DNA of 64,000 nt. It comes from Megalonaias nervosa. Taxonomy: Eukaryota > Mollusca > Bivalvia > Unionida > Unionidae. The stretch is from the NCBI GenBank assembly GCA_016617855.1, contig JAECUM010027314.1, positions 1 to 64,000 on the forward strand. Reading direction: 5' to 3'. Positions 5,183-64,000 of this stretch are shown piece by piece. The notes beneath the pieces are model-generated. The model had not been told where the DNA came from. It was given only the letters and a program-made list of their open reading frames with translations, and did not search any database. The translations under genes were made by a program, and so were the position numbers. Numbering within the stretch: the stretch's first letter is position 1; every line of letters starts with the position of its first letter.

Positions 5183-6350
5183 TTGATGATATAATATGCA
5201 TACTGTTTGATGATGTGTTATTTATACTGTTTGATGATGTAATATATACACTATTTGATGGTGTAGTATTATTGTTGATATGTCTTCTTTTTGATGATGC
5301 AATACATGTACTGTTTGATGATGTAATATGTATACTGTTTGATGATGTAATATGAATACTGTTTGATGATGTAATATATACTGCTTGATGATATCATGTA
5401 TACTGATTAATGATGTAATATATATACTTTTTGATGAAATAATATGTACACTGTTTGATGATGTATCATGTATAATGTTTGACGATGTAATATGTACTGT
5501 ATGATGATGTACTATTTATAATGTTTGATGATATATTGTGTATAATGTTTGATGACATAATATGTATATTGTTTGATGCTGTATCATGTATACTTTTTGA
5601 TGATATATGATGTATATTGTTTGATGATGTATCAGGTATACTGACTAATGATGTATTATATATACTGTTGATGTATACTGATATATATACTGTTGATGTA
5701 TACTGTTTGATGGTGTAATATTATGTTTGACAATATATCATGTATACTGTTTCATGATGTATCATCTATAATGTTTGATGATGCACTATGTATACTGTTT
5801 CATTATGTATTGTGTACTGTTTGATTATGTAAAATGTGTACTGTTTAATGATGTAATATGTATTCTTTTTGATGATGTAATATGTATTCTTTTGATGATG
5901 TAATATGTGTACTTTTTGATGATGTAATATGTATATTTTTTGATGATGTAATATGTATACTGTTTGATGATGTAATATGTATACTGTTTGATGATGTAAT
6001 ATGTATTCTTTTTGATGATGTAATATGTATACTGTTTGATGATGTAATATGTATACTGTTTGATGATGTAATATGTATTCTTTTTGATGATGTAATATGT
6101 ATGCTGTTTGATGATGTAATATGTATTCTTTTTGATGATGTAATATGTATACTGTTTGATGATGTAATATGTATACTGTTTGATGATGTAATATGTATAT
6201 TGTTTGATGGTGTAATATGTATACTGTTTGATGATGTAATATGTATACTTTTGATGATGTAAAATGTATACTTTTTGATGATGTAATATGTATACTTTTG
6301 ACGATGTAAATCATATAATGTGTTATGATGTAATATGAATACTGTTTGAT
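5183..6350. repeat. Large 24-bp minisatellite, ~48 units
   Basis: The unit is GATGATGTAATATGTATACT followed by GTTT, with an alternative TCTTTTT form. Units are diverged at the left (5.18-5.85 kb) and homogeneous in 5.88-6.25 kb. Because 24 is divisible by three, frames stay open on both strands (ILFDDVIC-type and ILHHQTVY-type octapeptides). These are not supported as genes. Confidence 0.97.
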
Positions 6351-6490
6351 AAGTCTTTTTTATTCACAGACAAGGTTATTCTTTAACTTTTTCATTACAT
6401 ATCTCCATTATATCCTCATAATGAAAATGATGATTTAATGTTATTGGAAGAAAGACTGCCACACAATTTAGGGGCTGTTTGTTTGATTAT

Positions 6491-6955
6491 GGCAAGATGT
6501 CTAAATATAGACTAGGTCTTATAAATGAGGCCAAGATGTCTAAATATAGAATAGGTCTTATAAATGAGGCCAAGTGGTCTAAATATAGAATAGGTCTTAT
6601 AAATGAGGCCAAGTGGTCTAAATATGGAATAGGTCTTATAAATGTGGCCAAGTGGTCTAAATATAGAATAGGTCTTATAAATGAGGCCTAGATGTCTAAA
6701 TATAGAATAGGTCTTATAAATGTGGCCAAGATGTCTAAATATAGAATAGGTCTTATAAATATGGCCAAGATGTCTAAATGTGGAATATGTCTTGTAAATG
6801 TGGCCAAGATGTCTAAATATAGAATATGTCTTATAAATGTGGCCAAGATATCTAAATATAGAATAGGTCTTATAAATGTGGCCAAGATGTCTAAATATAG
6901 ACTAGGTCTTATAAATGAGGCCAAGTGGTCTAACTATGGAATAGGTCTAATAAAT
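6491..6955. repeat. Minisatellite, 39 bp x 12
   Basis: The unit contains GATGTCTAAATATAGAATAG, GTCTTATAAATG and a GGCCAA junction. Both strands are open across the array because the period is 13 codons. Confidence 0.95.
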
Positions 6956-11490: not shown

Positions 11491-11874
11491 ACAGCAATCC
11501 AATAAAAAGTGCAATAATAGTTGCATTAAAAAAAATTCTTACATACACTGCATCAAGCTATAAAGAAGGGCCATAACTCTTCCATAAATTAAGGAAGGTC
11601 CAAGATTTGTCAATACGTGCATTTATGAATGATGATCATATAGTATGAACCAACTTTAACCACAGTCCATAAAAAGGTAAGACAACTTGCATTCACAATG
11701 AAAGGTTGTCTTGTCCTACATTCAGCAATATAACAAAAGGCATAGGACCTCCCAAAACAATGGGGAGTAAAGTGATTTGTTCAAATGTTTGTCTTCCAAT
11801 TATGACCATAATATTTACCAACTTTCATGGCAGTCCATGAAAAATAGGAAATGGGAATAGTTGATTTAATGAGA
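11491..11874. other. Spacer between two arrays
   Basis: Nothing beyond AT-rich sequence with a short phrase (AGTCCATAAAAA / AGTCCATGAAAAA) near 11666 and 11833. Confidence 0.4.
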
Positions 11875-13317
11875 TTGTGTTGGATGGTTGGAAATGTGTA
11901 TTACTATAAACAGATATTGTGTTGGATGTATGGAAATGAGTATTACTATAAACAGATATTGTGTTGGATGGATGGATATGAGTATTACTATGCACAGACA
12001 TTGTGTTGGATGGATGGAAATGAGTATTACTATACATAGACATTCTGTTGGATGGATGGAAATGAGTATTACTATACACAGACATGAGTATTACTATAAA
12101 CAGACATTGTGTTGGATGGATGGAAATGAGTATTACTGTACATAGACATTGTGTTGGATGAATGAACATGAGTATTACTATACTCAGATATTGTGTTGGA
12201 TGGATGGAAATGAGTATTACTATACAAGGGCGTTGTGTTTGATGGATGGACATGAGTATTACTATACATAGATATTGTGTTGGATGGATGGACATGAGTA
12301 TTACTATACATAGACATTGTGTTGGATGGATGGAAATGAGTATTACTATACATGGACATTGTGTTGGATGGATGGACATGAGTATTACTATACATGGACA
12401 TTGTGTTGGATGGATGGACATGAGTATTACTATACATGGACATTGCATTGGATGGATGGACATGAGTATTACTATACATGGACATTGTGTTGGATGGATG
12501 GAAATGAGTATTACTGTACACAGACATTGTGTTGGATGAATGAACATGAGTATTACTATACTCAGACATTGTGTTGGATGGATGGAAATAAGTATTACTA
12601 TGCACAGACATTCTGTTGGATGGATGGAAATGAGTATTACTATACACAGACATTGTGTTGGATGGATGGAAATGAGTATTACTATGCACAGACATTCTTT
12701 TGGATGGATGGAAATGAGTATTACTATACACAGACACTGTGTTGGATGGATGGAAATGAGTATTACTATACACAGACATTGTGTTGGATGGATGGACATG
12801 AGTATTACTATACATAGACATTGTGTTGGATGGATGGACATGAGTATTATTATACATGGACATTGTGTTGGATGGATGGACATGAGTATTATACATAGAC
12901 ATTGTGTTGGGCAGATGGACATGACTATTACTATACATAGACATTCTGTTGGATGGATGGACATGAGTATTACTATACATAGACATTCTGTTGGATGGAT
13001 GGACATGAGTACATGTATTACTATACACAGACATTCTGTTGGATGGATGGACATGAGTATTACTATACACAGACATTGTGTTGGATGGATGGATATGAGT
13101 ATTACTATACACAGACATTGTGTTGGATGGATGGACATGAGTATTACTATACAGAGACACTGTGTTGGATGGATGGAAATGAGTATTACTATACACAGAC
13201 ATTGTGTTGGATGGATGGAAATTAGTATTACTATACACAGACTGTGTTGGATGGATGGAAATGAGTATTAATATACATAGACATTGTGTTGGATGGATGG
13301 ACATGAGTATTATTATA
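11875..13317. repeat. Large 42-bp minisatellite, ~34 units
   Basis: The unit is GGAAATGAGTATTACTATAC, ACAGACATTGTGTTGGATGG, AT. The period equals 14 codons, so long overlapping frames are open on both strands, including two of more than 400 codons on the minus strand in different frames. Their mutual overlap and pure repeat content argue against coding. Confidence 0.97.
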
Positions 13318-14065
13318 TTGAGACGGAGATACAATAACTAATATAAGACACTTCTGATACAGAGAAATCAAATTATCTGTGTTTTAGACAACATATATAA
13401 CAACACACATGATCACATTATGTACATATGCATACATGAATGACTAATAAGTTTAATTTTTTCAGCATTTAGTGTTTTTATGTATAATCATTCTAACAAG
13501 GGTGTCATTAATACAAGTAAGAGTTTAAAAAAAGCAAAACTTTAAATTTTGTTAATAATATATTAAAAAATAATGTTGCCACTTTATCAATCATCAATCA
13601 CGCTAACAAGCTTAAGAGGATAAATAGAAACAGGAAGAAAGAAACAAATTATGATGCATCACCTACTGTGAGCAACAAGTCCAGGGGTCAGTTTCATATC
13701 ACAAACTGGTAGTGCATCTTAAAGTGAAAAAAGATACCCATGCACCCTAAAGTGAAAAAATTACCCATGTCATGATTATTAAATTGGATTACAGATATAT
13801 ACAATGTTCAAACACGGTGCAAATCATAACAAATAACTTTTTTAGGCAAATCCAAAAATAAAGCAAGCAAAACATTTTTGAGCTTAACATTAGTCACTGA
13901 GATGAAAATACACAAGGGGTTATCATGGATGCATACAGTTCAAGTTCAGTTTATTTTCTTCATGCACTGGTTAATGTACAGCATAATTCTGTGACGGAAA
14001 ATCCACCCCTACCCGATGTTCAGCAGACCTCTGTTCCACTGTCTTCATCATCCCCTTGAATGTGT
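13318..14065. other. Spacer
   Basis: No gene or repeat supported. A short phrase (CCTAAAGTGAAAAA) is repeated near 13720 and 13745. Confidence 0.4.
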
Positions 14066-40355: not shown

Positions 40356-41390
40356 ATGGCAGCAAGCCGGCAGGAGTGTAGTATTTGCATGGATAGTTTT
40401 AAGAATCCTAAGTTAATATCATGTCACCACAGCTTTTGTTGCAAGTGTCTGGAGGATTATATACAGGTTAACCTTCACAATGGTCGATTTAATTGCCCCA
40501 TCTGCAGGACAAGTGTAGAATTACCGAAGAACGGGATGTCCGGTTTTCAAAGTAACTTTTACATCGATACTGACTCGGGTGAGAAATTTGCCTGTGACCT
40601 TTGTGGTCCGAAAAACGTGGCATGCAGTAGATGTTTGGACTGTGAAGAGAATTTGTGTCAGCCATGTTGCTATGCACACGAAAAATCAAAAGTTAGTAGG
40701 CATCACAAAATTTGTGATCTGGGAACTCTAGATTCTGTAATGAAAGGTAAAATTCGACAACGTGTATTCTGTGATCAACATCCAGAAGAGGAGATCAAGC
40801 TTTTTTGTCAAGATTGTAATGTAGTTATTTGTTTAATGTGCAAAGCGATTAAGCACGAGAATCATGCAACAAAATCTGTAGCTGATGCTGCAACTGAAGT
40901 AAAAAAGACCCTAGATACGAAACTGACTCAATGCTTAGACAAGCTGAGACGTATCAATGCTTCCATAGCAAAGGTAGAGGAGCTTGATAGGAGTATTAAT
41001 GATGCAGAGAGGGAGGAATTAAAAGCAGTTGACAATCAGGGATCACACTTGCACAAAGCAATTGACGAAGAAGTGGCAAAATTTAAAGACAAAATACAAA
41101 ATGTTTACCAGCTCCTACGACAGCAAAACGCAGTTTTCAAAAGAGATATGGGGGATGAATTAAACTCGTGTTCTAACACCAAGGACAAAGCACAAACACT
41201 AAGAGATCAAATGACAGACATCGAGATACTAAAGAGTGGCCTAAATCTTGAGCAAGAAATTTCTGCAGCAATATTAAAGAATGATCAAATACCCAGTACA
41301 CGTCTGGATAACAAACTGTTTTCGCCAGCCAAAATAAACGCAAGTGTGCTGATTCCCTTGATTGGCATCATGCAAGATTCTACTGACGTG
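40356..41390 (+). CDS. TRIM-type RING/B-box/coiled-coil protein, exon 1
   Basis: Exon 1 encodes 345 residues. An in-frame TAA at 40317 precedes the first ATG at 40356, which has a good context (AAAATGG). Residues 8-50 form a C3HC4 RING finger (C8, C11, C23, H25, C28, C31, C47, C50). A cysteine/histidine-rich B-box 1 spans about 80-120. B-box 2 spans 139-170 (C139, H142, C151, C154, C159, C162, H167, H170). A charged coiled coil follows from about 175 to 275. Such proteins are usually E3 ubiquitin ligases, with the RING recruiting the E2 enzyme and the coiled coil driving antiparallel dimerisation. The exon ends in phase 0 at GACGTG/GTAAGT; without splicing it would stop 16 codons later. No NHL, SPRY or other C-terminal domain is visible, so the subtype and substrates cannot be named. 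Confidence 0.92.
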
Positions 41391-43317
41391 GTAAGTATCA
41401 ACTCTCGTAAATTTCAGCCCCAATGTGTTCTATACATGTAAGACTTGTATTCTTATCTTTGATACGAGAAGCAATGTCTGTATTCCCAATGAAAATAATA
41501 AGAGACGTTTGTACTTATACTGAGTTAAGTTCCTTCATGAAAGTACTTAACTCATATCATTTAATATTCGAGTATTTCAAAAGTCTGATATCGAAAGATA
41601 TTATTATTGATCATTTGAAAGGAATTTAATCAGATAAACGTAGAGGCCTTATCAAGAAATATAAATAATATGCGTGGTGAAGTTGGTAAACATACACAGA
41701 CAGCACGCACCGTCCACGCAAAAAACATTGATTCTGGTGGGCAGGAACTATTCAGCTTAATGTTCAGGGCACAGAACACATTTGGAACTAGTCGGCGTTC
41801 TAGTTTGTTTTGCTTCAGTGAGAACCGAAACAAGTCATATTTGACAGTTGGGATCTGCTGGTTATCCATTCCTTTTGTTGAAGCAGCATTGCTTTTTTAT
41901 TTATTTTATATCTTTGCCATTAGTTTTGATTTTGTTTTAATGTACCTGACCCCTAACGTACATTTAAAGGCATTATTTATTATATAATGGCTGCCTGGAG
42001 AACACATCCTGTATTTGATAATTATGAGGCGAGCGAACTTCGTGATATAAGGCATATTAAAAGGCAAAATATTCTTGCCAGAAGGATAAACAACCTTGAC
42101 TATCTTATTTCGTACGTTTCAAGATCTAACTCCGCCTTCGCAATAAATGCACTTTTAAGTTAAGAAATACAGACTGGTCCCTTAAATCATCCGGCGCATT
42201 TTCGCTATCCATAATATATTCTGCTTAACTTTGGAAAAAAAAAAAAAAAAAATGTGATGCTAACTTATTAACACCCCTGTTCCAGTATTAGCGTTTGGTG
42301 TTTACATTTTTATATGTCATTTTAATGAGACTTCATTCACAACAGAACTACGGATGCAAGCATAATGCATGTTATGTAAATCAAAGTCATATCATTAGCT
42401 GAAACAGGCATAAGTAGGATGCAACAATGCCGGTTCTATCACAGCACATACCACCGTATCATATAGCGGTTCATTTGAATAAGGAGTACGCCTGTTATGA
42501 TAACCCCCTTACGTGCCAGAACCACATCCTTCTTTTGGGATTACCGCTGCCATATCTGTGCTGGTTCTAGCAGGTTTAATGGGGTTGAAGTGACAATAGC
42601 GGGTTGAAGCCAACCCTGGCGTCCCTGTACCCTGACTACCGCCTCAAATGCTCTTGCGAGCATCAGCCCCACACCGATTACTGATTTAGGTCACACGGTT
42701 ATGGTGTAAATAAGTTCCAAAAGTTGATCCTTGTTGATGCAATACGTGCTGTATTTCAAAATGAGGTCCTTGTCGTAGGCAATGTTCAACTTTTCCTGGT
42801 CGTAAAGTTCTTTTAGCTTTTGTGCGTGAGCAACACTTTATCAGGCCCGCGCCCTATGACCTGTGAGAGTCAAATTAACAGCGATATCGCTATTAATAAG
42901 GTAAACGTTAATGATGGCATCTTCGAGATCTTTGCGTTTTTCGATGATAACTTGGGTGAGGTACCGTGTTTCCAAACGTTTCTCCCTATTTTTAGGATTG
43001 TGAAAATTGGTTGATTAATGTACAAACACTGTAGCATTATAAAATCTATTATAATATGCAATATATAGTGTAGAGTCTTAACCACGTGCTCATAGCGAGA
43101 CTTTCACCCGCTTACGCTTTGCATCTCGTTATTCGCTTATCTCAGTGTGATAAAGAAAAGACGGAAAAGTTACAATTCAGAGATTTAAATACGAGACAAC
43201 CCTTACATTAGATCTTCGTGTATTGCGTATCTTTCTGTTCAAGTAATACATTTCCAAATATGTACATCTATGTCTACTCTCATCTTGTCTGATATCGCAT
43301 TTATTTGATTCTTTCAG
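41391..43317 (+). other. Intron 1 of the RING/B-box gene
   Basis: It is bounded by GTAAGT at 41391 and TTCTTTCAG at 43317. It holds a poly-A run at about 42234-42251 and a minus-strand relict frame at 42541-43011. Its last ~250 bp are homologous to the region before the second micro-exon. Confidence 0.75.
42541..43011 (-). pseudogene. Relict minus-strand reading frame of unknown origin
   Basis: Read on the minus strand in a single frame, 157 codons contain only two interruptions before a final TAA: an adjacent TGA TAA pair at about 42838-42843, and a TGA near 42688. The first 105 codons look protein-like, with helical charged phrases such as VIIEKRKDLEDAIINVYLIN and AHAQKLKELYDQEKLNIAYD. The local base composition is richer in G+C than the flanks. 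I do not recognise the family. It may be a degraded mobile-element, viral or captured host gene fragment, or a chance frame. Confidence 0.35.
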
Positions 43318-43341
43318 GACGAAAGAGCAAGAAAAGGACGA
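43318..43341 (+). CDS. Micro-exon 1 (24 nt) of the RING/B-box gene
   Basis: The exon lies between TTCTTTCAG and GTGAGT and encodes DERARKGR in phase 0, matching the phase-0 end of exon 1. It is the most diverged of the four copies. Homologous sequence flanks it on both sides, shared with micro-exon 2. Inclusion adds eight residues to the C-terminal side of the coiled-coil region without shifting the frame. Confidence 0.75.
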
Positions 43342-43481
43342 GTGAGTTTTAATATCCGTGATTTCAATCACTACGAACGAATGTTACTCTCTCTGATACA
43401 CCTTTTTCTATATTTTAGTTCAAACGTTACTGACAATATTTCAGGTCAAAAGAGGTTATCTTAATTAATTGCTACAGCGCC

Positions 43482-43485
<4 letters not shown>

Positions 43486-43550
<65 letters not shown>
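43486..43550. repeat. (TA)n microsatellite that grew inside a duplicated intron block
   Basis: About 32 TA units precede TTGATATTTT. The homologous position after micro-exon 2 (about 44550-44570) has only ATATATATTGATATTTT, so the expansion postdates the duplication. Confidence 0.95.
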
Positions 43551-43552
<2 letters not shown>

Positions 43553-44266
43553 ATATTTTTACAACTAAAATAAACTCTGTTCTAATTTAATTGCGTCAAA
43601 AATCAGAATATCTACATTTTCGGATATATCGTCGTATGATATCTTACCTGCGTTCCCCAACTGGCAATGAATGCAAGACATCTCTAAAAATCATTACTGA
43701 TTTTATCATAGTCACATCAAAATAATTTGTAAATACTGTCATGATGCAAAACGCTTAGTTTTGTTTCTGTAAAATATATTTCCGTTGGTATCGAATTGCC
43801 CTCTGTATAAGTCTTACTTTTAGTCTATTTTATAAGTATACATATCATGTTGCCCTTTTGTACTCTGCAACCCCTCAACTGTGATCAGGAAGGGACCATT
43901 GTAAAATCCTTTGTGTCGAAACAGTATCATATGTTCTTAACTAGACTTCCATCCGCTTGCGTATTTGAAAATATCTCGCAGGTAAGCCGATTCTACCGAG
44001 GATATTATATGCAACAAGGAATATTACAGCTTGTTATTAATGTTATATCTAAATGACAAAAAAGAAGAGAAAAGTCAATATTCAGAATCTTAAATACGAA
44101 GCAGCCCCATAGAAAATTCGTTCATAAGACTGATATTGTGTATTTCTCTCTTCAAGTAATGACATAAACTGTATTTGCAACTGAATGCGTCTACAGTCTC
44201 TTTTGAAAGCAAATATTATATGTTTACTACACCTTGTCTAATATGATATACATTATATTCTTGCAG

Positions 44267-44290
44267 GAAGAAAGAGAGAAAAAAGAAAGA
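44267..44290 (+). CDS. Micro-exon 2 (24 nt) of the RING/B-box gene
   Basis: Bounded by ATTCTTGCAG and GTAAGT, it encodes EEREKKER in phase 0. The flanking intron blocks match those of micro-exon 1: upstream CCGCTT.CG...ATCTCG, downstream TTGATATTTT, ACATTTCGG and TACTGATT.TATCA. The unit length between copies 1 and 2 is 949 bp. Confidence 0.82.
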
Positions 44291-45099
44291 GTAAGTATTA
44301 GTATAGTGATTTCAGCTTGCATGTACAAATTCTGCAGTGCATAATGATATTATGTGATTGCAAAGACACGTTCATTTAGTAAACCTAACTAGTCGTCACA
44401 AAGTGATCGTCTTTGACTATGAAGGATGAGGTCAGCAGCTCATCTATATATAACACACTTTTTCTTTCTATTTCGGCTTAAATGTCAGTAACACCATTTC
44501 AGCTAACACATGGTTATCAGAATAATTTTGTTTCAGCGCACAGGGAGACAATATATATTGATATTTTATACAAAACCCAATGAAGCTATATCCTTTTTTT
44601 CACATGCGCAAAAAGCCCAATACTTACATTTCGGGTGTATCTTGCTGCGTTATCTTACTATCTTCTTTAAATTACCAACGTTTGCGAGGCAAGTTTTCGT
44701 TTGCTTACTGATTCTATCAAGCTTAGACACAATACATTTATAAATACTATAATTATGTAAACCTTTTTGTCTTGTTTCTCCAACATGTTTTATTTTAACT
44801 TCTTTAGAAATAAAAACCCCACGTTGACCTATCTCTCCATGTATCATAGTATGCAACGCATTTTAAAGAAAGAGACAAAACAACAGCGCCATTTTTCACA
44901 TTAGTATGTAAACGTACCAATCGCATGCAATGGAAATCTGTTGGCATATGCTACTATGCAATCAACGAGTACAAAATGAACGTGACCATCTGTATGTGCA
45001 TATATTATTTCAAGAAAGTCCTGTTACTTTCCAAACGCAGTAAGGTAGGCACACACCAATTAAAATGCAAAACATGGAGTTCCAAAACGTTGTCTGAAT

Positions 45100-45900
45100 G
45101 ACATTGACGGTACACAAAACTGTGAGAGGTTATTAACATTAAACTTTCAAAATCTAAAGCATAGTGTTTCAAAACACAGTTGGTAAAATATCATTTGATA
45201 TCATAACAACTGTTGCAAATTGTAAACTGTCCAAAATGCGTATATTTAGTTGCACATATGTTAACCAAATAAGCAAAACATTCCACATGACATCATCATA
45301 TATATTTTCCCCCTCCAACCTTGTCATGGCAACATTTGTTATATCTGAAATTATGCTTACTTTCCCACTGAATAAATCTGAGGTGGTGAAAATGTATTCT
45401 TTACCTCTACTAGTCTGTCCGTTAGCTGCAGATTTGTATTGGCACTTTGCCTAAAGTACTTAAAGGAGTGCAATGAAACTTTGAACGCACGTTATGTCAT
45501 GAGCTATTGGATCCCCAAAACGATAATGGTACTGCTCTGACCTCCAATAGGGCCGTCACAGTGGCCAACAGGAAATGGTGTTATCGTTACTTCCCCTGGT
45601 CAGAAAGTCATATTGACATGGGGATTTCACTAGAAGGCTTCGTATTATATTTAATTGGTGGGAATTGAAAATGGTTCTAATCTGATGTTCAATATGGCTG
45701 ATACAGCACCCACTTTTAATTTGTTTTTATATCTACTATTGAACAAAAAGTCTTATTGACACGGGGTTCTAATCAGAAGACTTATTAGGGTCTCACAGTT
45801 GTCATCTTTAAAATCTTGTTATGGCTACTCCTCCCTAACAGATGGTCATATGAACTTGGGGATTTTAATGCTGTAATGGTTATTCGATTTATATTGCGTA
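45100..45900. repeat. Block B: duplicated intronic segment, copy 1
   Basis: Matches 50780-51790 in order. Shared parts are CAAAACACAG.TGG.AAAA, AAACTGTC.AAAATG, GTCATGGC.ACA and CTACTAGTC..T.CGTTAG, followed by degenerate repeats containing AATATGG(C) and GTTATCGTTACTCC. The 96-codon frame at 45164 is not conserved in the other copy and is not a gene. Confidence 0.7.
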
Positions 45901-46039
45901 CCTGACGTTTTTCCTGATTGTGATTAAGTGTTCTGAATATAGTTTGGCCTTCCTGACGTTTGTCATCATTGCAAGTATGTAAACAAGATGTTTATTAGAA
46001 TTTTAGTATTTAATCCATACTTTTCTTTCGTTTATCTTT

Positions 46040-46778
46040 AAGAGGATGTCAACGTAGTGGAAATAATCATTGTAGCTGTACTGTATGTCTTAGCATATAA
46101 AAAGGGGTCAGATGCAAATTGAATGCCACCAAAATAAAATGTTCAATTGCATAAATTATATTATTTAATTACTGAAGAATAAATCATGGATTAGGAAACC
46201 AACATAAAAGTTCATCTCTCGATGACATAAAGAGACGAGTGTCTTTGAAAATATTATACTAGTCTGAGAAATATTCGTTTCTCTGTCCACGTTGAAAGCC
46301 CTCCTTACGACATCCACAGTACGTTTTCAGCTATCGGTCAACGTGGCCAACGAGAAATGGGTGACTTGATAATATTACATGCACCGTTAGAGGCCGCAAG
46401 GAGTGAAACAAGAACATAACCTCACTGTAGAGAGCGCAAATTTGACGATTGGTTATCTGCCGTTTAATTTCTTGCTGTATTCAGCAACACCGTGTTATTG
46501 TTACCTAAACAATTTAACATACCCTATTGACGGAAAACTGTGTAGCTCGTTACTTTCTATCTATTGAGGATAAATAAGACAGAAAATTTGAAATTCAACG
46601 ATTTAAATATGAGACAACCCCTATAGCAGATTAGTCTAAATGACAACTATTTCAGAATTTTCGGTTCACTGTAATTCCATTTACACATTAATGCATGCGT
46701 GTCTACTCGATTATTTGGGAGCAATTACGCGAGGTTTGTCTCTCCTTGTCTAATATTAGATTTATTATATTATTTCAG
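46040..46778. repeat. Block A preceding micro-exon 3
   Basis: Homologous blocks precede micro-exon 4 (49440-50075) and lie at the window end (63300-64000). Shared landmarks are ATCATGGATT, TCTGTCCAC, ATGGGTGACTTGATAATA, CTGCCGTTT, and AGATTTAAATACGA-like sequence about 200 bp before the micro-exon. Confidence 0.8.
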
Positions 46779-46802
46779 GAAGAACGAGAGAAGAAAGAAA
46801 TA
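46779..46802 (+). CDS. Micro-exon 3 (24 nt) of the RING/B-box gene
   Basis: Bounded by TTATTTCAG and GTAAGT, it encodes EEREKKEI in phase 0. It belongs to the same duplication group as micro-exon 4: about 650 bp upstream and 300 bp downstream are recognisably homologous (for example TTTTCAAAC, TTTCCTATATC and ATTATACGTTTGTTTCAA downstream of both). Confidence 0.82.
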
Positions 46803-47269
46803 GTAAGTGTAAATATAGCTGCTTTCTGTTCATAAGTACAAATCATGTATTTTATACAGGTTTTTTTGTTTCTTCTAAGACGCATATATTTGTGGAAAAT
46901 AATTATTCGCCAGATTTTACCTCACCTTTACCACTTTCCAATGAAGGATTATTTTCAAACCGTGATTAGTTTATATTTTTCCTATATCTCAATATTTATC
47001 GTTTTCGACAGTAAAATAAGTAACAGCCTTTTATCAGCAAATAGGTACAAAGGGACATATTTATGGAATAAAACATTATACGTTTGTTTCAAGGTGTGCT
47101 AGTTATAATTTGGCAAGGTCCTGCAAGCTTTCCGTACTGTTAAATTATTGACTTTCTTCCTGATGATTCATCCTTTAATTGTGCATGTACTGATAGTTTA
47201 ATAATGTTTCTTATGTTGCAAATACTTATCACTTATAATCTTAACTCATAATGCGTCAAACCTCGGGTC

Positions 47270-47760
47270 TCGTGATCTCATCTTCCAATAAACACTGCTG
47301 TGATGACCAACAAGTTAACTTGTATTGCCTTTATTAATTTAGATCGGATAGCGCAAAAAAAAAGTTCACTTTAAAGCGTGCACCAAATAATATGTGCAAA
47401 ATGAAAGAGCAACGATTTAGAATAAACCAAAGGTAAGTCAATCTTGCCACAAATGACCTATCAACATTTTGAAACACGTCAGTATTTTAGGTAGGACGTG
47501 ACATGCAGATGGTATCTCACATTTAAAGAGTGATACGATCACTTTAGCAGGACGTTTTCAAATAGCTAATGCTACCGCAATCGATGGAGACTAGCTGCCT
47601 GCTGGCGATGATGTCGATAATATCACTGAGTTGCCTACTGGGACAAGAGGTGCTGGAAATATTAACCCTGGAAAACGAGGGAACCAGACCATTCGTTCAC
47701 TGCGATATTAGAGCAATCTGTGACAGAAAGCACTCCATTATTGACCTATATGTCTAATGT
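47270..47760 (+). repeat. Block C, plus-oriented copy
   Basis: It matches the complement of about 62740-63190. Shared phrases include AAGTTAACTTGT, GAATAAACCAAA.GTAAGTC, ACAAATGACC, GTATTTTAG, ATCACTTTAGCAG, CTAATGCTACCG and CTGCCTGCTGGC. The short frame starting at 47569 begins MLP in both copies but diverges after about 25 residues, so coding is not supported. Confidence 0.8.
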
Positions 47761-48519
47761 TGTGTTTAAATCTGGATTGTTTAATACATATTGGAGCAGA
47801 CCTGATATCAGATTACTTCATTTTCTGATGACTTTCTGAAGACATTAGACTCGAAAGACCACTCAAAATGTTATGAATGTTTAAAGAAGAAGGGTATGGA
47901 AAAATGTTTCGCGTTTCATATCGGCAATGTCTAGTAGTCTTTTTATACGAATCCACGTTGCTTGGCGGTATACACTAAACTATCCTTCTAACTTGGGAAT
48001 CAGAAAAGATTGCAATCTAAGTCTTCTAATTTTGAATATATTTATTGCTAATTTGATTACCAAATTAAGAGAGAAATATATACATATGCTACTGGTTATA
48101 ACTGACAATTTAATATAGCATATGTTGGTGATATTGCTAATCATGCAGATAGTGCCAGAAATCTAGAAATTATTATTGTTGAGGAAACTTGGGAAGGAAT
48201 AGGAACAGGTTCAAGATTAATATTGACTAAATTCAAATCACTGTTTATAGAAATGGAGATTTTCGGAGAAAACTGGAGGAGAATGGTCTCTCGTGTTTAT
48301 TATACGGGGCAAAGTTCGTGTCTGTATCAATATTAAAACCAGGCTAAAAATGTGAAAAACATATTTTGCACCAATTACTTGAAATTACCAAATAATACGT
48401 TTTTCTCATTTTCATGATACGAATGTGGCCTATATAATGTTTACATTCGAGATTAATGAGTGTATAAATCTCACAGGTCAAATGTGCATTTGCATCCAAT
48501 TATTAATAGACGTAATCTG

Positions 48520-49125
48520 ATTGTTATGATCTTAACGGTGCAAAATAAGGAATTCACAGCGCTTACATAGCGTATGACAAAGGTTGAACGCTCTAGTGTA
48601 TATTGTTTCTATTCTTTCTTAATTATAATTGAATCCTCTTCCTTTGGCAACTTTTTGTCACACAATTTACCATGTATTATACGTATCCAATTCTATAATT
48701 ATCTCATGTAAACCCATGCACCCTAAGAAAGAAAAACAAAACATACAACGTTGCCAAATTATGTTGCAGTTGACCTTCTCTAGCACTTATAGAGAAATCC
48801 TCTCAGACTGGTCTGAAAACACATAATGTTAGATGCAGTTTTGAAACGTGCAATTGATGCACGTTTTATCATTATTATAATATTCACGGTGCATAATGGG
48901 ACCTCACGACAAAAGGTTAAACGTTATGATCTATGCTGTTTTTATTCTTTGTTAATTATAATTTAAATCCTCCTCCATTGGCATCTTTTAGTCATACAAT
49001 TTACCATGTCTGATACTTATCACCTTTTTATATAAAGCCAACGAGAAACATGCAAAGTTGCCAAAAATGTAATTGACATTGTCTGAAACTTTCAGAAAAC
49101 ATACACCCACGTTGGTCTAAAAAAA
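48520..49125. repeat. Tandem duplication, ~350 bp x 2 (diverged)
   Basis: The copies at 48520-48835 and 48870-49125 share CGGTGCA.AAT, ATTCTTT.TTAATTATAATT, TCCT.TTGGCA and ACAATTTACCATGT, and then GTTGCCAAA and a GACTGGTCTGAAAA-like end. No function is seen. Confidence 0.75.
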
Positions 49126-49439
49126 CGAACCAATAGTGTAAGATTAGCTATTTTGAAAACTGCAACCATTTATCGTTTTTTCTTCTTCTAATATTCAAAT
49201 ATCCACTAAGGATGATCTACTCGAAGAATCCTGATCAGATTATACAGTCTGCACGTAATTGTTAAAACTGTATAATGTTCTACTTGCGACTCGCTTTCCT
49301 TTATGAGAAAAGTTAAGAAACATTATACGAATTTCTGATCCGACACTGTTAATCTGTCACTCAATGTCCACAATGACACGTAGACAAAGCACACTTTTAA
49401 CATTACTTTGTGTTAGAATTAAAATAAACTGACCGTTTT

Positions 49440-50075
49440 TGCCAATGTATTAAATAATTGAAGTGAAACATCACGGATTTAAAAAGAAAATGAGACTTGA
49501 AGTTTTCAAAGAAATAACCAGATTAGTATATTTTAAAACGCTATACTATTCTAAAAACATAATCGCTTGCTCTGCCCACTTTCCTGAGCCCACATTACAG
49601 CATGCTCAGTACCATTTTTTTATGCTATGTTGTCATTAAGGGATGGGTGACTTGATAATAATACATGCACAGTTTGAGGGCAAATGGAGTAATATAAAGA
49701 ATAAATCACAAATGTAGATTTAATAATGGGCTGTCTGCCGTTTTATTTGTTTTTGTTTTTTTTTTTTTATCGGCAGAATTATAAATACTGTATGGAAGAA
49801 CACGTCACAGCTTGTTTATTTCTGTCTCTTCAGAATAAAGAAAGGACAGAAAAGTTGAAACTCAGAGATTTAAATGCAAGAAAATCCATATAGTAGGTTA
49901 GTTCAAAAGACAACTATTTTGAATAACATTTGTTTCATGTAATGGCTTACACTGTGAGAGGTACGTTGTATTTCCATCTGCGAATATTTGCAAGCGTACC
50001 TACTCTCTCTTTGGAGAGGAAATAAGCGGGTTTTGCTTCATCTTGTCTAATATCAGATTTATTTTATTCTTTCAG
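49440..50075. repeat. Block A preceding micro-exon 4
   Basis: Homologous to 46040-46778 and 63300-64000 (ATGGGTGACTTGATAATA at 49645; CTGTCTGCCGTTTTATTTG at 49731). Confidence 0.8.
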
Positions 50076-50099
50076 GAAGAAAGAGAGAAAAAAGAAAGG
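50076..50099 (+). CDS. Micro-exon 4 (24 nt) of the RING/B-box gene
   Basis: Bounded by ATTCTTTCAG and GTAAGT, it encodes EEREKKER in phase 0, identical in protein to micro-exon 2. At the DNA level it differs from micro-exon 2 only in the last base (AGG versus AGA). Confidence 0.82.
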
Positions 50100-50779
50100 G
50101 TAAGTACAAGGATATATGTTTCAGTAAATATGTTCTAATCATTCATTAGATAAAGCTATTATGCCATTGCTAAGGGGTGTATATTATGAAATATAATTAT
50201 TATCCAAATGTATCTCATCGTTTAGCACTTATCAAAGAAGGAGTGTTTTCAAACTCTTGTCTAGTTCATATTTTCCTATATCCCGCATTTATCGCTTTGT
50301 CGAAAAAAATATAGCATCCTTCTTTGAAAAATGCATAGAAACTGACATTTTTATGGACTAATAGATTATACGTTTGTTTCAATACGTGCCTAATATGACA
50401 TTGTCATTCCAGCCATCATTACTGTTAAATTATTGACAGTGCGGCCCATAACATTACAAGCCTTGTAGAGTTGTTAATTAGTTTATCTTTTACAAAATAT
50501 ATACTGTGACTAATAACTGTCTCTTATATTTCACAATTCAAGGTCACAAGAAGGAATATTTAATCATGACGCTTGTTTCAGTATCCGGAATACAACACTT
50601 TCGTATTATGTTTAACAAAACGTACTCGATGCCTAGCTCGGGTAGGACATAGTCCCGTCGTTGTTGAAAAGTTGACTTGTGTGACCCTCGTGGTTTGCCA
50701 TGCTGTACATGTTTTTCAGTCCCAAACCATTGAATAAATAATACATGAGACTTTACTTTATACATACATAATGCCTAGT

Positions 50780-53019: not shown

Positions 53020-54872
53020 TAAAAGATAAACAAAAAAGAAAAACTGAGTTGGAAAAGAAACTAAAGAGGAAGGTTGATAATCAGAAAAGATCCCAGAAAG
53101 CAAGGGACTTGAAAAAAATCAAAACTGAATGCGTTTATGGAAGATAATCCTGAACTGCGCACAAAACTGAATATCAGGGCCAGATGTGGCCGACCAAAAA
53201 TTGAAGAGGAACAACCATTTCTTTTGCAAGCTATACTGAATATCGCAATGTATGGTTCAGCTTCTCATGGAAAAAAGACAGTCCGAAGTCTGCATAAGTA
53301 TCAAAACCTTAGATCAATTTTAACAGAGCATTTAAGAAAAGATGGCTTCATTATAAGTCAAAGTGTAGCAAAACCTTCGTCTACTTCCTAAGCGTAGTTC
53401 GTCGTCAGAAGGTAAGCGTCATGTTGCCACTGTCCCAGTAAAGTTAATTAGAGCGCAGAATGATTATCACACTAAACATATTGATGGCTAGTTTTGCACA
53501 ACTACAATAAGACATTTGGAAGAATTGTCTTCCATACTTGGACTGGATGAGGTTTGTTTTATCAGCCAGGACGATAAATGTCGTGTCCCAATTGGTCTGG
53601 TCGCTGCCAGTAAGCAGAGTCGACTGCTAATGCCCGCTGTGTATAAAGTAAGCCTTCCTGAACACGACCAGGTAGTTACTGCCCGGCACAAGCTTATACC
53701 CTCGGTGTATGCCGGCATTGAGATCCATCGCAACAAACAAAGTCTGCTATTGGCTTTTCTGGCAAAATGTTTATAGCCATCCGATGTGGAAAACACTCCG
53801 CATCAACAGCACTCAGCCAAGGATTTTACTTTGAAAAGTTGCGGTGTCTGACAGAGTTCGATACCATAACCAGGACTGGTACTGATAAATTGATCAAGCC
53901 GATTCTCGTGTTTACTGTTGATGGTGGGCCGGATGAAAATTCATGGTATCAACAAGTCGTTAAGGTTGCCATCCACCATTTCTTGAAACATGATCTTGAC
54001 TTTGTCTTCATTGCAACAAATGCTCCGGGACGAAGTGCTTTTAACAGAGTGGAGAGAAAGATGGCGCCACTGAACAGGGAACTGAGTGGATTAATATTAC
54101 ATCACGACAACTATGGCAACCATTTAGACGAACGAGTTAAGACAATTGACATTGAGCTAGAGAAGAAAAACATTGAATTTGCCGGAAAAACGTTGGTCGA
54201 AATATGGTCACAGTTGACTTCAGACAATTACCCAACCATTGCTGAGTATATGGATCCATTACATTCAGAGCACATGGAACAGAATATATTGTGTAGAGAT
54301 CAAAACTGGTGTGACACCCATGTCCGCTCAAGCCAATACTTGCTTCAGATTGTGAAGTGTGACGACATGTGCTGTTCGAAAGCAAGAAGCTCATACTTCA
54401 GAGTGATAAAAAGAGAGATTTCTTCCTCTTCCTTTACCCCTTGTTCAAACATGTGAAGGGCTTAAAGTTCCAGACCGAGCAACAGGTGGGGCCTTGCACC
54501 AATTTCCATCCCTATTTGCCACTCAAAGTCTCAAAACGGAAGACATTCTACCTCGGTCAGCAAACACATTTCGGACAATTACCTACGATCTGTATTGCCC
54601 TGCACTTCAATCTGTGCAGAATGAGAGAATTTGCAAGATATGCCACTTGTATGTCAGCTCTCTGGTCATGTTGCTGCAGTCATTCAGTCCTTCACAAACA
54701 AATAGCAGTTCCATCGAAACGTATCAGACCAATGAGAGTCGCTGCTAGAACGCAACGCGAAATGATGGTCATACTGGCAAATGCAGAGAACGCAGAAAGT
54801 GTGGATTGGATTGACGAGGAGGAGCTTGATTTGGAGAAAATATCCCTTCCAATAAATGATGTTAATGTATAA
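53020..54872 (+). pseudogene. Decayed DDE/RNase H-like transposase gene
   Basis: A single protein-coding ancestor can be followed through pieces in alternating frames: 53137-53391 (frame 1), about 53380-53755 (frame 2), 53767-54410 (frame 1), about 54412-54680 (frame 2) and about 54680-54872 (frame 3). A lysine-rich stretch precedes it from about 53020. There are thus at least four frameshifts plus an in-frame TAG at 53489. The core resembles an RNase H-fold transposase: a first acidic pair in FISQDDK (codon near 53570), a second in FTVDGGPDEN (near 53920), and a Glu in FNRVERKM (54052), 43 residues later, like the N-x-V-E-R helix of integrases. A CKICHLY motif and an acidic tail lie near the end. 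The superfamily is not assigned. The copy cannot be active. Confidence 0.8.
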
Positions 54873-63190: not shown

Positions 63191-63299
63191 GGATTATCAT
63201 TATTGTGTGGAAACATTAAATAGATAATGCCAATTTATACCAATATACTGAAATAGCATTTGCCGCCTAATGTGCTTATCCATATTTTTGTTTCTTTAT

Positions 63300-64000
63300 T
63301 TGTTTTAAATGACCACAAGGTAATGGTAATAATCATTTCTGCTATACCATAGAGATGGGGTCGCTTCAGTAATTTGTGCCACAAAAAGAAAATATTTAAT
63401 TGTCTAACGGAATCTGTTACTAAAGTAAAATCATGGATTTGGAAAACAAAATGACAGTTAATGTCTTCGAAGAAACAAACATATGAGCATCTTCGAAAAG
63501 GTTATACTTCTCTGAAAAGAATATTCTTTATGTCTGTCCACTTTACTGAGCCCACAATACCGTATCTACGTTATGTTGTTGTGTTCTTCGTCCACACTGC
63601 CATTGAAAGATGGGTGACTTCATAATATTGTATACACAGTCTGAGGGCGAACGGAGGGAAACAAGAACAAAACACAAATTGCAGAAAGGCAATGCAGATT
63701 TGATGATTGGGCTGTCTGCCGTTTTATTTGTTGTTGTAATCTGCAGCGCACTGTACGTTTTACCCAAAGAAGTAAAAGTGCTCAATGGCTGAAAAAGTTA
63801 GAGCCTGTTAATTTATATCTCAATGAAAGGCAGAAATGTTGAAATTCAGAGATGTAAATACGAAAGAAACCGTACAGCAGATCAGTTGAAACGACAACTA
63901 TTTTTGGATTATTTCGTTTCATGTAATGGCTTACACAATGACTTACACTATATTTCGATTAGCTAATATAAGCATCCGTGTATATTCCCATTTTTAAGAA
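63300..64000 (+). repeat. Block A, copy 5, cut by window end; predicts a further micro-exon
   Basis: Landmarks in order: ATCATGGATTTGG, TCTGTCCACTTTACTGAG, ATGGGTGACTTCATAATA, GGGCTGTCTGCCGTTTTATT and GTTGAAATTCAGAG.TGTAAA at 63838. In copies 3 and 4 the micro-exon lies about 210-230 bp after the last landmark, so the equivalent exon would fall near 64050-64070, outside the window. Confidence 0.75.

Follow-up and report, generated by a model that had tools for sequence, protein, structure and literature searches.

Tandemly duplicated micro-exon cassettes behind a RING/B-box/coiled-coil exon of the unionid mussel Megalonaias nervosa and their likely product, a charged single helix

A stretch of 64,000 nucleotides from Megalonaias nervosa (NCBI GenBank assembly GCA_016617855.1, contig JAECUM010027314.1, positions 1 to 64,000 of the forward strand; hereafter the window) harbors the first exon of a TRIM-type gene, whose product is likely a ubiquitin ligase. 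Behind this exon lies an array of no fewer than five micro-exon cassettes that arose by tandem duplication; four of them have 24 nt and one has 33 nt. Micro-exons are very short exons of about 30 nt or less; the four 24-nt cassettes combine this size with canonical splice signals, and the fifth is slightly longer. We consider it quite probable that the array is spliced in series into one charged helix, which acts as a spacer. The cassettes would be joined behind exon 1 to form a single alpha-helix (SAH) of the ER/K type on the C-terminal side, and every 24-nt cassette would supply one full eight-residue charge period (EERE/KKER). The exon unit would thus coincide exactly with the structural period (24 nt, eight residues, one ER/K charge period), and duplicating, losing or skipping an exon would then mean clean steps of helix length.

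Exon 1 and the tandem array

Exon 1 (40356..41390, forward strand; 345 codons) encodes a RING, B-box 1, B-box 2 and a coiled coil, followed by a linker, and ends at a phase-0 donor GTAAGT. Pfam recognizes zf-C3HC4 at residues 8-50 and zf-B_box at residues 138-174, both above their cut-offs, and an ANCHR-like B-box at residues 80-119, which with 24.5 bits lies below its 27-bit cut-off. The coiled coil corresponds to helix 175-285 in the structural model of P0004, an annotated protein of a related mussel, and the succession of RING, B-box(es) and coiled coil is that of the TRIM/RBCC proteins. The top hits of Foldseek include TRIM28, at low TM-scores (first hit 0.38). Exon 1 is 74% identical over its full length to a protein of Sinanodonta woodiana, and its identity to P0004 in the alignment is 72%.

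On the same strand follow cassette 1 (43318..43341; DERARKGR, donor GTGAGT), cassette 2 (44267..44290; EEREKKER), cassette 3 (46779..46802; EEREKKEI) and cassette 4 (50076..50099; EEREKKER), the latter three with the donor GTAAGT. All four are 24 nt long and open in phase 0 between a YAG acceptor and a GTRAG donor. A preliminary description of the window had already placed exon 1 and the four cassettes at these positions with consensus acceptors and donors in phase 0, and it was correct in every coordinate and splice signal. A scan of both window strands for stop-free YAG-24nt-GTRAG segments recovered these four cassettes on the forward strand and none on the reverse strand. By itself, the number of segments is close to what chance gives and proves little: 64-kb sequences simulated with a first-order Markov model (60 of them, read on one strand each) contained on average 1.7 and at most four such segments, compared with the four seen. 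When at least five of the eight residues had to be D, E, K or R, the expectation dropped to 0.03 and the maximum to one, versus four in the window. Chance splice-like segments were hence rejected for the charged set, although the count of segments alone would be compatible with chance.

The homology between the copies comprises the exons together with their adjoining introns, as is typical of tandemly duplicated exons, and the earlier proposal of serially duplicated symmetric cassettes is borne out by this homology of the flanks. A self-BLASTN comparison aligned the introns 46224-47152 and 49511-50437 (67% over 974 columns) as well as the flanks 44191-44365 and 50000-50174 (73%) and 43280-43347 and 50038-50105 (82%). 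Cassettes 2 and 4 agree at 23 of 24 sites and their single difference is synonymous, as against only 110 of 171 agreeing sites in the 5' flank and 60 of 96 in the 3' flank. The same comparison delimits a duplicated unit of intron, exon and intron around cassette 3 (46013..47152, forward strand), which matches 63278-63937 with its part 46013-46687, and a second one around cassette 4 (49467..50437, forward strand), which matches 63427-63969. Addition of the next contig stretch extends these matches to 46013-47041 against 63278-64330 and to 49467-50325 against 63427-64323 (70%).

Because the homologous flank recurs at 63278-63969 and runs off the window, a fifth exon was predicted at about 64060. 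Its upstream flank occupies 63278..64000 (forward strand), and the exon was found beyond the window at 64058-64090 of the contig (locus L001:58-90); it has 33 nt, encodes EEKEEKEKKER in phase 0 and is bounded by the acceptor tttag and the donor GTAAGT. The array of four reported previously is therefore complete for the window, but at least one more cassette lies outside. The intron lengths from exon 1 onward are 1927, 925, 2488, 3273 and 13958 nt, and the contig ends 3.7 kb after the fifth exon. All five copies in the contig have the element CTTGTCTRATAT in common, located 23-34 bases upstream of the exon; judged by its sequence, it could hold a branch point. The fifth exon contains an inner AG, a possible alternative acceptor, and its last 24 nt alone encode EEKEKKER.

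Charge pattern and predicted helix

The unit EEREKKER presents an opposite charge at every i,i+4 pair, both inside the unit and across the joins. In the four joined cassettes of the window, 29 of the 32 residues are charged, two are hydrophobic and there is no hydrophobic seam; 23 of 28 i,i+4 pairs are attractive and none is repulsive, a pattern that was not equaled in any of 20000 shuffles. The i to i+4 pairing that had been noticed from the sequence is thus confirmed, and the high charge, the opposite charges at i,i+4 and the missing hydrophobic seam are the features by which SAH or ER/K domains are recognized. Since 24 nt represent one charge period, no repulsive i,i+4 pair arises whichever of the 15 possible selections from the four window cassettes is joined in genomic order.

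Extension of the TRIM coiled coil, the function originally proposed for the cassettes, was rejected. Given a period of eight rather than seven residues with almost no hydrophobics (two of 32), a single ER/K helix is favored over a coiled coil. AlphaFold2 models were obtained for the relatives' proteins P0004 and P0035, which stand in for the spliced window protein; both exhibit a coiled-coil helix (residues 175-285 and 177-287, respectively), a return helix, a linker and a separate cassette helix (343-398 and 349-388), which starts 57 and 61 residues past the coiled coil. For most of the cassette part the 10-residue means of AlphaFold2 range from 85 to 97, with lower values at its ends, and the pTM of 0.43 for both models implies that the placement of the domains is not trustworthy. 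The array thus likely makes a predicted single ER/K helix of period eight and not a coiled coil.

With canonical helix geometry, each 24-nt cassette gained or lost would make the helix about 12 Angstrom longer or shorter and turn the following part by about 80 degrees, while the frame would be kept. The postulated steps of eight residues hold for the 24-nt cassettes, but not for the array in general, since cassettes of 33, 18 and 39 nt exist as well. The helix is predicted, and a spacer role with a length that follows the number of cassettes is likely.

Paralogues and relatives in Unionidae

A DNA search of the same genome with cassette 4 and its flanks as query yielded 48 matches, with 75 candidates and 40 scored, and these numbers represent a lower bound. 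The 30 loci that were taken from the matches correspond to 27 distinct places, three of them in two pieces and cassettes 4 and 5 included; the other 18 matches, among them cassette 2, were not turned into loci. An intact exon is present at 21 of the 27 places (18 of 24 nt, two of 33 nt, one of 39 nt), some of the intact copies are identical to one another, and at one place the donor is changed to GTACGT. Across the 30 aligned copies the mean pairwise identity amounts to 0.85 for the cassette, 0.93 for the donor, 0.81 for the acceptor and 0.62-0.68 for the flanks beyond the splice signals. The position classes of the cassettes, including the 33-nt class (support 0.98), recur across contigs, so that the arrays were probably copied along with whole genes. 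The 32-residue peptide of the joined cassettes had no match in the genome, which is uninformative given that intron-split exons are expected to be missed. The 39-nt cassette (L026:1610-1648, contig C51228), EEREKKEREKKER, resembles a 24-nt cassette with an internal 15-nt duplication. Copies without acceptor (cat, caa) are L009, L012, L016, L017 and L027, and contigs that carry such a copy can also hold intact cassettes (C9040, C44250); intact neighbors beside broken copies would be expected if single cassettes could be dropped cleanly.

Three further contigs, C54609, C9040 and C44250, contain an intact exon 1 upstream of the cassettes on the same strand, with protein identities to the window of 63%, 64% and 81%, respectively. 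Its donor is GTAAGT in all of them; in C54609 and C9040 it is shifted downstream by two codons. Stops are absent from exon 1 of the four paralogues, and their six pairwise dN/dS values range from 0.25 to 0.34. In the parts of C54609 that were read, on either side of positions 50-79.8 kb, the cassettes encode EERREQ (18 nt), EEREKKER twice, EEKEKIEKTER (33 nt) and EEEQIKAI.

The closest annotated proteins belong to S. woodiana (Unioninae) and Potamilus streckersoni (Ambleminae), both Unionidae. Our family set comprises 65 proteins (P0001-P0065), including six longer or distant ones (P0056-P0061). Cassette units, assigned by eye, directly follow the end of exon 1 in 12 of them, for example five in P0004, three in P0001 and four each in P0031 and P0035; 18 models were classified as "other", among them P0055, which reads VS at this point. 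Cassette 3 read through into its intron has a weak match to residues 378-394 of P0004 (64.7% of 17 residues, E 0.055). The best correspondence was found between P0035 of P. streckersoni (EERIQKEK EERERKER EEREAKEY EEREKKVR) and the Megalonaias contig C10693, whose exons EERVQKEK (21834), EEREKKER (24938), EEREAKEY (29001) and EEREKKVR (32755) match it unit by unit and also resemble P0031; the third exon was sought on the pattern of P0035 and then found. P0063, split by eye into EERLGQ EERERKGR EEEQIQAF, resembles part of the C54609 array. On account of the one-by-one match between C10693 and P0035, the cassettes behave, as far as sequences can tell, as conserved exons across Unionidae. Conservation in relatives had been set beforehand as the observation on which the array could fail, and it was found in annotated proteins and in paralogous DNA.

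The cassettes of the Megalonaias genome were read straight from the DNA. RNA-seq is listed among the evidence for the published annotations of S. woodiana and P. streckersoni (PMC12048480, PMC7937423), where the accessions SRP547275 and PRJNA681676, respectively, are named. The relatives' proteins are only assumed to come from these annotations, the locus-tag prefixes of the hits being absent from those texts.

Competing explanations and known systems

Several observations weigh against the modular helical spacer. Many TRIM/RBCC proteins possess a C-terminal domain such as SPRY or NHL. Neither downstream exons nor a C-terminal domain were found within 42 kb past the last cassette of one paralogue in a search of open reading frames (ORFs) of at least 70 or at least 110 residues, complemented by a scan for charged micro-exons: in C54609, no long ORF for such a domain was seen in the region 91-133 kb, only transposon-like or unassigned ones, and the relatives' proteins have no significant match in the window's own contig between the window and the contig end at 67744. 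Addition of the 33-nt exon leads to 33 attractive and one repulsive of 39 i,i+4 pairs, and two of 28 pairs are repulsive in P0031. Cassette 1 is the most divergent copy, having 15 to 18 of 24 sites in common with the others; the acceptor AG is lost at five of the 27 places, some of them also without donor or frame; and on C10693 the 8.5 kb that were read upstream of the first cassette yielded no exon 1. Among the 65 family models, 21 continue past the boundary with VS (19) or VC (2), like a translation through the donor, and then stop, and 14 end within three residues of the exon-1 boundary. The S. woodiana annotation took P. streckersoni proteins as templates, and the models may thus follow one another (PMC12048480).

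Alternative inclusion of cassettes is possible judging from their exon structure, and the five known exons allow ten helix lengths from 0 to 43 residues. A splicing-tuned ruler, with which the cell would pick cassettes, set the helix length of one TRIM-type gene and so shift and rotate the C-terminal domain with respect to the RING, is a tentative and somewhat doubtful extension of the spacer. If it were true, arrays of the gene family would also evolve by exon duplication and loss of single splice sites, resulting in changes of reach by whole periods. The coincidence of exon unit and charge period would make both the evolution of spacer length and its possible regulation in a likely ubiquitin ligase directly testable with existing mussel RNA-seq. 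We give close to an even chance to the competing explanation that all cassettes are constitutive and that helix length varies between genes through exon duplication and splice-site decay without any choice of isoform. The uniformly strong splice signals of the intact copies, the runs of three to five cassettes in some annotated relatives and the match of C10693 with P0035 without a skip agree with it, whereas the cassettes, all symmetric and tiny, belong to the type of exon that can be skipped without harm. P0063 also joins three units versus at least five in the C54609 array, but the two are different genes of different species. Instead of as a spacer, the helix could serve as a charged surface that binds a protein, RNA or some other nucleic acid, with an avidity rising with the number of cassettes. 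The charge of 29 of 32 residues would suit such contacts, which have been reported for charged single helices with proteins and RNA (PMC5812594). Acidic and basic residues are almost balanced, however, which together with the i+4 pattern suggests that selection acted on the stability of the helix, and we regard a binding surface as unlikely.

Exon 1 alone could also be the working product, with the cassettes as relics. Unspliced, its frame stays open for 16 residues into intron 1 up to a stop that ends at 41441, and both the 21 read-through models and the broken cassette copies fit this explanation. It is nevertheless quite unlikely given that conservation is higher in exons and splice signals than in the flanks, that subfamilies match exon by exon and that the only site at which cassettes 2 and 4 differ leaves the amino acid unchanged. 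The read-through of the apparent exon-1 donor in 21 of 65 models also suggests that annotation misses such micro-exons. Finally, the cassettes could be carried in a dispersed repeat or transposon, whose youth would look like conservation, as the 48 matches over many contigs and the failure to find an exon 1 in the 8.5 kb on C10693 might indicate. In four of five contigs read upstream (the window, C54609, C9040 and C44250), however, the cassettes are preceded by an intact exon 1 on the same strand, the position classes common to contigs are those that whole-gene duplication gives, and the exon is more conserved than its own flanks, which renders a repeat very improbable.

The modular helical spacer has partial counterparts in known systems. 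Schistosome micro-exon genes (MEGs) encode short secreted proteins, and their coding sequence consists mostly of symmetric micro-exons. They resemble the mussel gene in their series of short symmetric exons that can be skipped without a frameshift, but the latter is led by a 345-codon RING/B-box/coiled-coil exon, and its cassettes are related copies coding for a charge-periodic helix. Its coding sequence does not consist mostly of micro-exons, with 43 residues in five cassettes versus 345 in exon 1. TRIM (RBCC) proteins such as TRIM28/KAP1, TRIM2/3 and TRIM72 have RING, B-box and coiled coil in common with it according to Pfam, a PDB sequence search and a fold search; the mussel gene differs by the micro-exon array past coiled coil and linker and by the usual C-terminal domain, which was not found. 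SAH and ER/K domains have the same E/R/K composition and opposite charges at i,i+4. Changes of single alpha-helix length between transcripts of one gene are reported to occur but to be rare, with afadin named (PMC5812594). In the open-licence PMC literature, we found no SAH or ER/K domain that has each charge period as its own duplicated exon or occurs in a TRIM-type gene, and no paper, mostly from the starts of abstracts, on micro-exon arrays in TRIM genes or bivalves. Tandem duplicated alternative exons are likewise copied in tandem with their introns, but those described in one report are mutually exclusive and exchange a region (PMC9741552), whereas in the mussel gene one unit can be appended to the next. 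Micro-exons, ER/K helices, the duplication of exons in tandem and TRIM families have all been described before; a gene that combines them and whose exons are as long as the charge period did not turn up in the literature searched.

Some proteins of the relatives have the exon-1 module (P0056-P0060) or only its RING (P0071) joined to other parts, namely eIF4G-like (W2/MIF4G), SPRY, HSP70-like and ADP-ribosylhydrolase (labels from Pfam accessions, the source name or by eye), and none of them has a clear cassette array. Either a promiscuous first exon has genuinely been shuffled here, or these proteins are fusions made by the annotation. Within the window, the long open frames at 5766-6901 and 11825-13337 resemble minisatellite-type tandem repeats (ITSSN/YILHHQ, HPTQCLCIVI) and not genes. 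The intron between cassettes 4 and 5 contains two overlapping open frames of transposon-derived appearance (53722-54456 and 54363-54872), for which Pfam gave no match up to E 0.1. In a Ty3/Gypsy-like ORF at locus L040 (C54609:123001-133000), the residues E, K, R and Q abound in a stretch on the gag side, and sequence of this kind may have been the seed of the cassettes.

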